Below, piece after piece: positions 34,651 through 54,347 of a DNA stretch of 64,000 nucleotides. Both the position numbers and the translations under genes were made by a program. This DNA is from Fibrobacter sp. UWR3 (lineage in GTDB: Bacteria; Fibrobacterota; Fibrobacteria; Fibrobacterales; Fibrobacteraceae), in assembly GCF_900143055.1 (NCBI RefSeq), contig NZ_FRCW01000004.1:62001-126000 (forward strand), read 5' to 3'. Below the pieces are notes generated by a model, which saw only the letters and a list, made by a program, of their open reading frames with translations, was not told where the DNA came from and did not search any database. The number at the start of each line of letters is the position of its first letter. The stretch's first letter is position 1.

Positions 34651-34705
34651 AACTAATTCCTAATTCCGAATTCCTAATTCCGAATTCCGAATTCTCAATT
34701 CTCAA
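34651..34705. repeat. Short tandem repeat CTAATTCCGAATTC
   Basis: Four to five imperfect copies of CTAATTCCGAATTC-like and GAATTCTCAATTCTCAATT units run end to end between pyrE and the gene upstream. No coding potential is supported. Confidence 0.8.
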
Positions 34706-35206
34706 TTACCCCGCTGCCCCGGTCAGGAGCGCGAAGATGCTGGAGAACACGTTCAGGTTTTCGGTCAGGACTTCAATTGCGATAAGGGCGGCGAGAACCA
34801 CCACGCAGAGTCCGATGTAGAAATAGAACGACTTCTTGAAACCCTTGATCTTGAGCTTGAAGATGAGCCAGATGACAAAGCTCAGGATGGCGCTGAAAAT
34901 CCATGCGGCTGCGCCGTTCAGAGAAACGAGCCTGCTCACGCCGAAGGTGAGGGCGATGCCCGGCATAAAGAAGAAGCAGATGCACAGCACGCAGAGCAGC
35001 GCGAAGCCAACGTAGTGGGCAAAGCCGCGTTCACGCTGCACGATAACCTGGGTCTGGGTGACGGAGGGGGCTTCGGTGCCTGTCGAATCGGCCGGAGCTG
35101 CGGCTTCTTCGACAGGTGCGGCCTGTTCAACCGGAGCGGATTCCTGGACGGGAACGCTTTCGGCGGCTGCGTTTTCAACGTTTTCGTTATTGAGTTCTTC
35201 GGACAT
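34706..35206 (-). CDS. Small membrane protein with acidic Ala/Pro/Glu N-terminus
   Basis: The 166-residue protein has a disordered acidic N-terminus (residues 1-60, with PVEQAAPVEEAAAPAD repeats) and three hydrophobic helices (about 67-92, 98-118, 125-150). QVIVQRERGFAHYVG precedes the first helix. The layout suggests a cytoplasmic tail and a three-span domain. No family was recognised. GGAGACAACCATG gives a strong start. It lies between purU and pyrE on one strand and is likely co-transcribed. Confidence 0.65.
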   Translation of the reverse strand: MSEELNNENVENAAAESVPVQESAPVEQAAPVEEAAAPADSTGTEAPSVTQTQVIVQRERGFAHYVGFALLCVLCICFFFMPGIALTFGVSRLVSLNGAAAWIFSAILSFVIWLIFKLKIKGFKKSFYFYIGLCVVVLAALIAIEVLTENLNVFSSIFALLTGAAG

Positions 35207-50884: not shown

Positions 50885-52156
50885 ATGCTCTATAAGTTTT
50901 TACGCCTCGTGACATTCGTATTGGTGATGGCTCTCGGCCTTGTCGCTTGCAGTAATTCCTATAGTTCCCTTGCCGATGTTTCGGAAGAAAATTCTTCGTC
51001 AGAAACCTTTTCGAGTTCATCGTTTGTAGTTTCGTCAAGTTCCGTCTCTTCCAGTTCTACAGTAAGTTCGTCAAGTTTTTCTGATTCCTCGGGTGTGATT
51101 TCAGTTACGGCGCTTGTGACGGATACCTTCGAGGTTTTTGCCTTTGGGTCGTTGAATATCGATATTGCCGCGGATTCGTTCTTGACCAAGTTCGATTACG
51201 GGGACGTTGTTTCGGTGATGGTGCCAGGGTACGATACGCTGGACGTTCCCGTGGTTGCGAGCTATGGCGATGTGTTTCCGGGCGAATTCTTTTTGTATGT
51301 TTCCTCGGGACTGAATTATCTCAAGCTTGAAGCCCGTTATGGACAGATGGCGGAGGTCATTGGTCTCGGGCGTGGTGCAGAATTCCCGATAGAAGTTGCC
51401 ATCCGGATGAAGGAGAAGGGCGGATATGCGGAACATCTGGGAAACCTGAATTCACTTGCAATTTCCTATTCCATTGAGGCGTATCCGGAGCTTTCCGTCG
51501 CGGACTTTGCGAATTTCAGGATGGTGCGTACGACGGGAATGGGCGAGGGGCGGCTTTACCGCTCGTCGAGCCCGGTGGACCCCTCGATTGGGCGCAACAA
51601 GTATGCGGATTCACTTGCGGCGGTCGCGGGAGTCAAGACCTTTGTGAATCTTGCTAATAGCGAGGAATATGCGGAATCGTACAACGGCTTTGCGCAGTCC
51701 TATTATGCGACGCGGAACGTTGTTTACCTTGATGTGCTGCCGGGCTTTGCGAACACGCCGTTCAAGGAGGGCTTCGTGAAGGGGCTCCGCTACATGGTAG
51801 AACATGATGGCCCGTACCTATGGCACTGCACGTACGGCATGGACCGCACCGGGTACACGATTGCCGTGCTAGAGGCACTGATGGGAGCGACCGCCGAAGA
51901 AATCAAGGCGGATTATGTTGCGACACACAAGAATTTCTTCAGCGTGACCGGCGGCGTGCAGGTCGCTTTGACGCCAAAGCAGGCGGAACTCATTCAGGCG
52001 ATAATTGTGAGGCTCATGCGGAATGCGTATAAGGTGGAGGGAGTCGACATCTCGGATTTCGAGAATGCTGATTTGGCGGCCGCCACCGAGAAGTACCTGC
52101 TCTCGCTTGGCTTGGAACAGTATGAAATTGATTCGCTCAGGGCGCGAATGAAGTGA
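50885..52156 (+). CDS. Exported protein-tyrosine-phosphatase-like lipoprotein
   Basis: The 423-residue lipoprotein has lipobox LVAC (Cys about 22) and a Ser-rich spacer (residues 25-70) with a beta domain to about 180. A PTP fold follows: FRMVRTTGMGEGRLYRSSSPVDPSIGRNKYAD, FVNLANSEEYAESY, then the signature HCTYGMDRTGY with Cys315 and Arg321 (HCX5RT), and an Asp before it in VYLDVLPGF. This makes an active enzyme likely. Targets could be phospho-sugars or phospholipids as well as proteins. The longer start at 50792 was rejected; the lipoprotein signal begins at 50885. Confidence 0.85.
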   Translation: MLYKFLRLVTFVLVMALGLVACSNSYSSLADVSEENSSSETFSSSSFVVSSSSVSSSSTVSSSSFSDSSGVISVTALVTDTFEVFAFGSLNIDIAADSFLTKFDYGDVVSVMVPGYDTLDVPVVASYGDVFPGEFFLYVSSGLNYLKLEARYGQMAEVIGLGRGAEFPIEVAIRMKEKGGYAEHLGNLNSLAISYSIEAYPELSVADFANFRMVRTTGMGEGRLYRSSSPVDPSIGRNKYADSLAAVAGVKTFVNLANSEEYAESYNGFAQSYYATRNVVYLDVLPGFANTPFKEGFVKGLRYMVEHDGPYLWHCTYGMDRTGYTIAVLEALMGATAEEIKADYVATHKNFFSVTGGVQVALTPKQAELIQAIIVRLMRNAYKVEGVDISDFENADLAAATEKYLLSLGLEQYEIDSLRARMK

Positions 52157-52158
52157 AA

Positions 52159-52983
52159 CTACTTCAGGAATTTTCGAATGACGTTCCTCACGTGTTTCGC
52201 GTTAAGCGGGGTGGTCGATGTTTCGAATGTTGCGATGAGTTTCTCGCCGAGCGTATAGCCGGATTTGTCGTAGTGCTCGATTTTCTTGACTGCGTTGGAA
52301 GCGTATTCCGGATTGTCCATCAGCCCGAAATGTTCCCATACGATTTCCTTGCGGGAGTGAATGTTCAAGCAATAGAAATCCGGATGCAGTGTGCCCATGC
52401 CCTTGACTGTAAGCGGGAATTCGTACCGGAAGGGAATTCCTTCACTATCTAGAGAATCGGCGATGATGACCTCGGACTTCGATCGGACTCTCACGCCTCT
52501 TGAGGTATAAATTTCCGGAGTGTCTTCTGCGAAGGATTTTGCTTTGTACGGGAGGCTTCGCCAGAGTTCGGCGTATTTTGCATCGGGCAATATCGCCGGA
52601 GAGACGAGTCCCCTGCGGGCTGGATTTAGGGCGTTGTAGATATCCTCAATCTCGGTGCCGTTGTATTTCTGGGCAAATTTTTCCAGCAATTCGATTTCAC
52701 GTATTGCTGCCGAAAGAAGAGCTTTGTTATAATCCCTTTGGGCGACTGCCTGAACCTTGTGGAGTTCTTTTTCGGGAACATAAACTCCGTTGAGGTTGCT
52801 GTTGCTTACAAGGTAAAAATGCGGATAGCCGCTCTTGCTTGTTGAAATTCTAAGCCGCCCTTTGGGTGCATTTCTTAGGGCCTTTTGTTTTTCGCTACGG
52901 AGGGCTTGCAACTCCTGCAGGCGCGCAGCCACCTGGAACGAAAGCGATTCCCTGGAAATCAGCTCGGGTATATGATTGTCCAT
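52159..52983 (-). CDS. PD-(D/E)XK-like nuclease
   Basis: The 274-residue protein has a helical N-terminal half (residues 10-150). A C-terminal domain follows with SKSEVIIADSLDSEGIPFRYEFPLT (Glu171), HPDFYCL (Asp202) and RKEIVWEHFGLMDNPEYASNAVKKIEHYDKSGY (Glu217, with WEHFG). The order E...PD...(E)xWEHfG is that of a group of stand-alone restriction-endonuclease-like proteins. The middle (SGYPHFYLVSN) is not recognised. It converges with the phosphatase gene (2-nt gap). Its 5' end faces a 201-bp tandem repeat array, which starts 85 bp away. Role unknown; defence or mobility is possible. Confidence 0.72.
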   Translation of the reverse strand: MDNHIPELISRESLSFQVAARLQELQALRSEKQKALRNAPKGRLRISTSKSGYPHFYLVSNSNLNGVYVPEKELHKVQAVAQRDYNKALLSAAIREIELLEKFAQKYNGTEIEDIYNALNPARRGLVSPAILPDAKYAELWRSLPYKAKSFAEDTPEIYTSRGVRVRSKSEVIIADSLDSEGIPFRYEFPLTVKGMGTLHPDFYCLNIHSRKEIVWEHFGLMDNPEYASNAVKKIEHYDKSGYTLGEKLIATFETSTTPLNAKHVRNVIRKFLK

Positions 52984-53068
52984 TTTTTCCCCTCAGATTA
53001 ATGGTGTTGGGTGTAATGTATAAAATATGGAGCCCGCAGACCAGTGGTTGGGCCGGTATTTGAAAAAA

Positions 53069-53577
53069 TAGGACTAAACGGGGGGTGAAATTGTGGTTTA
53101 GTCCTACCGAGGCTGTTGCAGTTAAAGTGGCGATAGGACTAAATTGGCGAAAATGTGCCGTTTAGTCCTATTTTCGGGCGCTCCTCCCTCCATTTTCGTA
53201 TGCAGAATCCCCGCAACCCTCTGATTTTTTGCTGAAAGAGGTAGAAAATTTTTTTGAAGTTGCAGGTTGGTAGGACTAAACGGGGGTGAAATTGTGGTTT
53301 AGTCCTACCGAGGCCGTCGCAGTCAAAGAGGTGATAGGACTAAATGGGCGAAAAGATGCCGTTTAGTCCTATTTTCGGGCGCTCCTCCCTCCATTTTTGT
53401 ATGCAGAATCCCCGCAACCCTCTGATTTTTTGCTGAAAGAGGTAGAAAATTTTTTTGAAGTTGCAGGTTGGTAGGACTAAACGGGGGTGAAATTGTGGTT
53501 TAGTCCTACCGAGGCCGTCGCAGTCAAAGTGGCGATAGGACTAAATGGGCGAAAAGATGCCGTTTAGTCCTATTTTC
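53069..53577. repeat. Three tandem 201-bp units with paired TAGGACTAAA hairpins
   Basis: Units start at 53069, 53271 and 53472 (periods 202 and 201). The third unit is cut at about 53577. Each has hairpin 1 (TAGGACTAAAC, 15-nt loop, GTTTAGTCCTA) and hairpin 2 (TAGGACTAAA, GGC...GCC loop helix, TTTAGTCCTA). Complete units add a third stem (CCTCT/AGAGG, inside GCAAC/GTTGC). Arms are identical in all six hairpins, while linkers vary (AAAGTGGCG vs AAAGAGGTG). No ORF is supported. Confidence 0.92.
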
Positions 53578-53599
53578 GAGCCCTCTGCGTTGAATTTGC

Positions 53600-53612: not shown

Positions 53613-54347
53613 ATGATTTCAAGAATTTTTAAACCGGCATTCATCGCGGCGCTCGCTTTTGCCGCGGCCTCCTTTGCCGACGAGGCCATCCGCTTTGTTC
53701 CCGAGGTTTTCCCGATGGGCGAGGTTGCTCAGGGCGACCAGAAACACTACGTGCTGCAGGGCGCGAACACCACAGGTGCAGAGATCGTGCTCGAAAACGT
53801 GTTCGGGCAGGGCATCGGTATGTCGAACTTCAAGTTCCCGCAGAAAATTGCCCCGAATGCGACCGTCACCATCGAGTTCGATATGGACTTCGCTGGCATG
53901 GAAGGGAAAATTGACCCGACGGTCGTGCTTGTTGCCGCCGGCGGTAAGCCCTATACGGCGAACCTTTCGGGCGTGGTGAAGGCTCCCGTGTTCTTCGGCG
54001 AGAAGCTTTTCGATGCTGGTTTCTACAAGGCGGGCGAAAAGCGCGAATGGACGTTCTACGTGTGGGAGACCGACAAGAAGGCTCGCCCCGATATTGAACT
54101 TTCGCCCGAGTCGGCGAAGCAGTTTGCGATGAAGTCTAAACCCGTGATGCTCAATGTCGACAAGCTCGACAAGATCAAGGAAGGCGGCAAGGTTCCCGGA
54201 ATCAAGGTGACTCTCTCGACGAAGGGGCTTACCCGCGAGGGCTGGGAATTAAAGCAGAAGAGCATCCGGAAGATAGTCTCCTTCAAGAGCAAGAAGTACC
54301 CGAAGGCGACTCCGGAAGTGCTCATCGTCGGCTACTGGAACGAGTAG
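53613..54347 (+). CDS. Exported Ig-like (DUF1573/ASH-type) protein
   Basis: The 244-residue protein has a signal peptide (FKPAFIAALAFAAASFA). A beta-sandwich follows: VPEVFPMGEVAQGDQKHYVLQGANTTGAEIVLENVFGQGIG, then PNATVTIEFDMDFAGMEGKIDPTVVLVAAGG. This resembles DUF1573/ASPM-SPD2-Hydin-like repeats but lacks their Cys motif. A C-terminal mixed domain ends EVLIVGYWNE. It stands alone with a terminator after it. Periplasmic or surface location; function unknown. Confidence 0.68.
   Translation: MISRIFKPAFIAALAFAAASFADEAIRFVPEVFPMGEVAQGDQKHYVLQGANTTGAEIVLENVFGQGIGMSNFKFPQKIAPNATVTIEFDMDFAGMEGKIDPTVVLVAAGGKPYTANLSGVVKAPVFFGEKLFDAGFYKAGEKREWTFYVWETDKKARPDIELSPESAKQFAMKSKPVMLNVDKLDKIKEGGKVPGIKVTLSTKGLTREGWELKQKSIRKIVSFKSKKYPKATPEVLIVGYWNE

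Follow-up and report, generated by a model that had tools for sequence, protein, structure and literature searches.

Helically phased palindrome arrays paired with a family of nuclease-like proteins in Fibrobacter, Treponema and Clostridia

A family of nuclease-like proteins found in Fibrobacter, Treponema and Lachnospiraceae/Clostridia, with up to eight paralogues per genome, is paired with arrays of palindromes whose centres lie whole helical turns apart. The protein very probably reads the neighbouring palindromes as paired signs, judging from sequence comparison, and we consider it likely that the two form a two-part system, in which the protein is a nuclease that binds DNA sequence-specifically and the helically phased arrays are its cognate sites. 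The case described in most detail lies in a 64,000-nt stretch of a Fibrobacter genome (the window).

The array in the window

Six palindromes of the form TAGGACTAAA-N17/18-TTTAGTCCTA lie within 53069-53572 (Table 1). All 12 arms are identical, 12 matches where 0.04 are expected by chance; the interiors measure 18 nt in palindrome 1 and 17 nt in palindromes 2-6. Tandem Repeats Finder reports a 201-bp unit in 2.6 copies with 95% match (53069-53585), and the repeat periodicity along the array is 201/202 bp. On one side the module borders a phosphatase-like gene (ending at 52156), on the other the promoter region of a DUF1573 gene (starting at 53613). A consensus scan of the minus strand recognised no promoter in the leader between array and gene.

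The preliminary description had reported a three-copy array with six invariant-arm palindromes, a nuclease-like gene pointing away from it at 85 bp, and a third stem in the complete units. Positions and arms agree with all of this; the third stem, CCTCT...AGAGG, is in both complete units of the window array, and none was seen in the other arrays read. The 201-bp repeat does not stand as the functional unit, which is a single palindrome, the centres in other arrays being 52-158 bp apart.

Table 1. Features of the module in the window (window coordinates)
Feature	Position	Strand	Remarks
Whole module, gene and array, ~1.43 kb	52157..53590		right border approximate
Gene for the 274-aa family protein	52159..52983	-	predicted N-terminal head and nuclease-like domain
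Leader, 85 bp, array to nuclease start codon	52984..53068	-	presumed promoter region, read from sequence
Palindrome 1	53069..53106		18-nt interior
Palindrome 2	53134..53170		centre 64.5 bp from palindrome 1
Palindrome 3	53271..53307		centre 137 bp (13 helical turns) from palindrome 2
Palindrome 4	53335..53371		centre 64 bp from palindrome 3
Palindrome 5	53472..53508		centre 137 bp from palindrome 4
Palindrome 6	53536..53572		centre 64 bp from palindrome 5

Pairing of gene and array across the family

One palindrome detector, which makes no use of the spacing between palindromes, was applied uniformly to all loci. Of 203 family genes, 157 had at least three inverted-repeat sites within 900 bp. 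The same threshold was reached in 0 of 191 first-order shuffles and in 1 of 129 real control stretches lying more than 2 kb away; 46 family genes had no array by this detector. Arrays at 110 non-redundant loci (proteins less than 90% identical) were placed upstream of the gene in 93 cases, with a median distance of 124 bp between array end and start codon, and downstream in 17. The arms differ gene by gene (TAGGACTAAA, TAGAACTT, TTACATACTA, GTACCTATAAA, GGGGC[GA]TATAAA, GGGGCATATAA, AAGGACTAAA and more) and are fixed for each cognate protein. A link of the array to the nuclease family, and constraint on the arms, had both been proposed in the preliminary description, and both are borne out. 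The opposite pattern, with repeats at random places, freely varying arms and no nuclease link, is mostly absent: the arms are fixed per protein, although dispersed arrays do occur far from the gene.

Species genomes, when scanned, contained at least 576 relatives of the 274-aa protein. The best 80 come from Lachnospiraceae and other Clostridia, Treponema, Fibrobacter and one Tenericutes MAG, and many of these 80 likewise have arrays of their own. At three loci (L104, L132, L144) arrays of the same motif lie on both flanks of the family gene. The genome of the window encodes a second family member, ~49% identical and with a different motif, of TTACATA type (L184, G000:C1:205000-209900).

Across Fibrobacter genomes, the presence of palindromes of a given arm type is associated with the presence of a gene with that array type, with p = 3e-6 for TTACATAC and p = 0.004 for TAGGACTA when one mismatch is allowed and kinship ignored; the window genome has 8 TTACATAC palindromes. 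By exact arm type, the TAGGACTA gene is in four genomes, and palindromes are in all four. Orphan TAGGACTA palindromes, one or two each, occur in four other genomes; orphans are in genomes without a detected cognate gene, some of which are incomplete MAGs.

Helical phase of the sites

A first clue to phasing is that the gaps between neighbouring half-sites of successive palindromes fall near 25, 35, 45, 56, 66, 77, 88, 98 and 108 bp, i.e. in steps of ~10.5 bp, while the half-site distance inside a palindrome is 28-30 bp. The 223 distinct centre-to-centre spacings at the 110 loci span 52-158 bp, again in 10.5-bp steps, with clusters near 53, 63.5, 74, 84.5, 95 and 105.5 bp. These clusters persist across many motif classes, related loci not being fully independent. 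Of the 223, 97% deviate from n x 10.5 bp by no more than 1.5 bp (29% expected). The period that fits best is 10.5-10.55 bp, at R = 0.914; the largest value among 1000 jittered sets is 0.359.

The A+T content around the dyads oscillates with a period of 10.5 bp, with maxima at the dyad, out to 100 bp. Part of this oscillation comes from neighbouring half-sites in phase; a mostly-linker stretch ~22-43 bp from the dyad also oscillates, with maxima near 22 and 31 and minima near 26 and 35. For the window array taken by itself, the power of the oscillation is 0.351 (random maximum 0.267), with a best period of 11.0 and a different phase. Because of the 10.5-bp spacing together with the in-phase A+T, we read the sites as bent double-stranded DNA and not as RNA hairpins or guides; the pattern points to palindromes bound as duplex, bent DNA on one face of the helix.

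Arm recognition by the N-terminal head

Similarity between motifs tracks residues 44-58 of the protein, the predicted beta-sheet tip, above any other segment (Spearman 0.29), also given the nuclease domain (partial Mantel 0.27; permutation maximum 0.09). For cross-phylum pairs the value is 0.27 for residues 44-58, while the helices give -0.04 and 0.03 and the nuclease domain gives 0.09; LRVL[KTS] goes with GCATATAA both in Fibrobacter and in Butyrivibrio. The protein tree is largely sorted by phylum (5 changes for three groups), so that the agreement of protein and motif between phyla looks convergent.

Where nuclease domains are at least 75% identical, the motif similarity of a pair has a Spearman correlation of 0.74 with residues 44-58 and of 0.19 with the nuclease domain. 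Two pairs of loci, L055/L057 and L042/L044, combine 97% identical nuclease domains with unlike N-termini and different motifs, the C-terminal 200 residues being nearly identical. By analogy with the target-recognition domains of HsdS, such an N-terminal swap looks like a recombined specificity module. A DNA-reading head in the beta tip is what would give this pattern of covariation and swapping, and from these two lines, indirect as they are, we strongly infer that the protein binds the arrays.

Protein family and predicted structure

Of 80 genomes of the genus Fibrobacter, 49 encode homologues of the 274-residue protein, with a maximum of eight in one; no Pfam or NCBIfam model matched the family. 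The AlphaFold model (50-row alignment, pLDDT 95) has a helix (11-37), three strands within 43-68, a second helix (71-106), a linker, and a nuclease-like domain (158-274). The best solved-structure match of residues 158-274 is I-Bth0305I (3r3p, an EDxHD homing endonuclease; Z 8.0, rmsd 2.8, 90 residues); further matches are Bax1 (Z 7.8), TnsA (7.5) and Vsr (1cw0, 6.4), and VRR_NUC is among them. Several independent members of the PD-(D/E)XK / EDxHD superfamily are thus matched, at Z 6.2-8.0 and rmsd 2.7-4.2, the Z values being at about the usual background. The fold assignment gains support from conserved residues, which back these near-background matches: R167-S168-K169, E171, D202, E217, H218, Y227 and E254 are kept in 188-190 of 190 members. 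We describe residues 158-274 as a putative PD-(D/E)XK / EDxHD-like nuclease domain, in which E171, D202, E217, H218 and E254 would be the catalytic residues.

The N-terminal model alone gave only coiled-coil-type matches (Z 7-8). A TasH chain matches it at Z 7.3, level with many unrelated coiled coils, and an AP2-like fold, considered for this part, had no support from the fold search. In eight family members (G009:C28:716-1639, G063:C28, G006:C161, G098:C9, G074:C21, G061:C9, G033:C20, G090:C27) an in-frame insertion of ~25-60 residues, recognised as two matches inside one open frame, lies near position 195 in the nuclease domain.

Records of plasmids and phages have the C-terminal domain only, mostly as the tail of helicase/ATPase proteins, with one exception, a full-length match (29%) on an unverified gut 'phage' scaffold. 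In the six plasmid matches H1-H6 this nuclease domain is the tail of AAA ATPase/helicase proteins, and in viral contigs (L060-L068) it stands alone.

Dispersed arrays, gain and loss

The window array is one of several in its genome, as the exact palindrome occurs there 28 times at eight places (reversed control pattern, 0). Among 61 genomes of the genus, the palindrome with 8-bp arms is present in 8 (1-31 copies) and absent from 53. The motif of the local family gene also recurs at several places in Butyrivibrio and Treponema genomes: G107 has 33 palindromes over nine contigs, and several Treponema genomes have 15-30. A family gene was present in four of 20 stretches fetched with a recurring motif. 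In the 26 arrays with no family gene detected nearby, the phase is retained (98% of 47 spacings), as is the A+T oscillation with its period of 10.5 bp.

Dispersed arrays sit in gaps between unrelated housekeeping genes that have no common theme. Judged by a simple ORF rule, 9 of the 14 gaps around Fibrobacter TAGGACTA arrays are convergent; Butyrivibrio and Treponema show mixed placement. In two species, dispersed TAGGACTA arrays adjoin a related glycosyltransferase gene (L024 in G009, L028 in G011).

Between loci, interiors resemble each other only slightly more than shuffles do, mainly through a central A-tract, which disfavours recent copy-and-paste. Some dispersed arrays seem to persist across species. 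In two orthologous arrays, agreement was higher in the arms than outside them (54/60 versus 165/197 and 52/57 versus 136/204), the alignment itself favouring the arms.

Relatives differ in the arrays they have, and the comparisons are unpolarised, i.e. compatible with either direction of change. In G015 and G023 the phosphatase-like and DUF1573 genes are ~22 bp apart, a site without the window module, and the three units of the window correspond to two in G083. The dispersed array L020 of the window genome is absent in G078 and present in G083, and L019 and L021 are absent in both. No target-site duplications were recognised at the presence/absence sites compared.

Comparison with known systems

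Enterobacterial BIMEs/REP sequences are palindromic extragenic arrays, often at gene ends, that are bound by gyrase. The arrays described here resemble them in form and in being associated with a DNA-processing protein, whose binding here is deduced; BIMEs have no dedicated sequence-matched protein of many specificities, and we know of no 10.5-bp law for them. A homing endonuclease gene normally interrupts its only target. The likeness of our family to EDxHD homing endonucleases such as I-Bth0305I, or to Vsr-like nucleases, lies in the fold match, the free-standing gene and the long two-part target, whereas here the genome keeps intact arrays of the presumed target, both next to the gene and at other places. 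The destruction by a gene of its own target is thus absent, on the assumption that the intact cognate palindromes are what is cleaved. Phased operator arrays are generally understood to have dimeric sites at integral helical turns, likely bound cooperatively and often upstream of the binder's gene, and sites at integral multiples of the helical repeat are present here too; the differences are that the binder has a conserved nuclease domain and that dispersed Fibrobacter copies are mostly not at promoters.

The closest likeness in lifestyle is to REPIN-RAYT systems. To our knowledge these have no helical phase. As in those systems, short inverted extragenic repeats are dispersed through the genome and also lie beside the gene for a dedicated DNA-processing protein, a separate repeat class belongs to each such protein, and repeats and protein coevolve; RAYTs are thought to spread REPINs (PMC3116915). 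REPIN-RAYT systems, however, have a Y1 HUH transposase, single-stranded hairpin units and hundreds of copies, while here a PD-(D/E)XK / EDxHD-like nuclease with a predicted beta-tip coiled-coil head accompanies tens of sites at whole helical turns, as for duplex recognition, and specificity is exchanged by swapping the N-terminal module. The predicted structure, helix-beta-helix followed by a PD-(D/E)XK-like domain, is not that of a Y1 transposase, and Pfam and NCBIfam gave no transposase family for the protein. No known kind of system among those tested agrees in its defining features. We rate the system as categorically new in parts and signature, with a lifestyle like that of REPIN-RAYT; nothing on such a nuclease-plus-phased-array system was found in the open-access literature.

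Alternative explanations

Three roles had been offered for the array: operator sites, a repeated structured RNA, or a substrate or guide for the nuclease. An array of binding sites of the operator kind is the best of these. That the protein is simply an autorepressor with a regulon, the gene array being its operator and the dispersed arrays controlling other genes, we nevertheless think unlikely. The upstream arrays at 93 of 110 loci, a median of 124 bp from the start codon, would suit it, and phased dimer sites are in general typical of operators; but the dispersed arrays adjoin unrelated housekeeping genes, 9 of the 14 gaps at Fibrobacter TAGGACTA arrays are convergent, with no promoter to control, and the putative catalytic residues are nearly invariant. 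In another reading, the protein would wrap DNA at intergenic arrays and so set topological or transcription boundaries, much like gyrase-binding BIMEs, the nuclease domain acting as a nick or swivel. The in-phase A+T oscillation, as in bent DNA, the phase retained in arrays away from the gene despite differing interiors, and the frequent convergent placement in Fibrobacter are in keeping with such an architectural role. It too appears improbable: a patchy distribution, up to eight specificities per genome and gain or loss between relatives are unusual for a housekeeping function, and placement in Butyrivibrio and Treponema is mixed.

We regard as quite improbable that this is a defence or conflict system, in which the nuclease would act on foreign DNA and the arrays would control or titrate it. 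Its C-terminal domain is like the end of the PADLOC candidate PDC-S68 proteins (1e-24), and a multi-copy, patchy family that swaps specificity modules behaves as defence genes do. The neighbours examined are, however, housekeeping genes, and phage and plasmid records contain next to no full-length members. Searched for as viral targets, two Fibrobacter palindromes gave 7 stretches in viral contigs with scattered single palindromes, about the chance estimate for 18-20 fixed bases; the TACGTGA pattern, at 14 bases, is too short to inform. Least credible is that the palindromes are transcribed as hairpins, i.e. as structured RNA, terminators or CRISPR- or TIGR-like nuclease guides, a reading to which we give hardly any weight. 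The plus strand folds well (z = -7.8), as would any perfect inverted repeats, and repeat arrays beside nuclease genes can be guides: TIGR arrays encode 36-nt guide RNAs with two alternating repeats and 9-nt spacers for Nop-domain Tas proteins (PMC12045711). The likeness to TIGR-Tas consists in a short-repeat array next to a gene whose product may include a nuclease domain. Against it, no Nop domain was found in 50 family members scanned against Pfam, the units vary over 52-158 bp in 10.5-bp steps and are not a fixed 36 nt, and the arms are inverted and track the predicted beta-sheet module of the protein; on these features TIGR-Tas is rejected. More generally, quantised spacing and in-phase A+T are properties of double-stranded DNA that neither a structured RNA nor a guide explains. 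Rfam gave no family over the array, and a scan of the array found no terminator-like site. A CRISPR had already been dismissed in the preliminary description, and CRISPR-Cas is rejected here too, on the inverted arms, on interiors repeated inside the array and on neighbours (phosphatase-like and DUF1573) that are not cas genes.

A model for the two-part system

In the two-part system that we favour, each palindrome would seat one protein dimer, with one beta-sheet reading head on each 8-10-bp half-site and the nuclease domains near the dyad. Because the centres are whole turns apart, neighbouring dimers would share a face of the helix, and with bent DNA they could form one cooperative nucleoprotein complex. 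The array beside the gene, usually upstream, may let the protein limit its own production, though autoregulation cannot be the whole story because 17 of the 110 loci have the array downstream. The other arrays on the chromosome would be extra docking or cutting sites, gained or lost between relatives. The whole may then behave much as REPIN-RAYT does, as a family of dispersed repeats that its nuclease serves in trans. That the putative active site is conserved suggests a role for cleavage or nicking, which might spread the arrays, guard them or have some other use. The least certain part, held with more doubt than confidence, is that nuclease action spreads or maintains the dispersed arrays. 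Tentatively, then, this might be a new class of genome-resident repeat, with an exchangeable beta-tip reading module that has a readable code, multimers that wrap bent DNA, and a nuclease that maintains or spreads the arrays.

These results connect a large nuclease family of rumen and gut bacteria, so far unannotated, with its probable DNA sites. Nature offers over 100 pairs of protein and motif, some of them swaps on a protein that is otherwise near-identical, so that the code by which a new DNA-reading module recognises its sites can be worked out directly. The system would be a second, unrelated case of the repeat-plus-protein lifestyle that REPIN-RAYT represents, and its helical-phase signature is strong enough to find such systems by sequence alone.

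Other repeats in the window

Two other repetitive stretches were seen in the window. Imperfect tandem repeats with periods of 18-96 bp, unrelated to the array, lie at 2520-2824 and perhaps encode, by their sequence, a serine-rich linker. A tandem repeat of AATTCCG type, with a period of 7/14/21, lies at 34653-34707.
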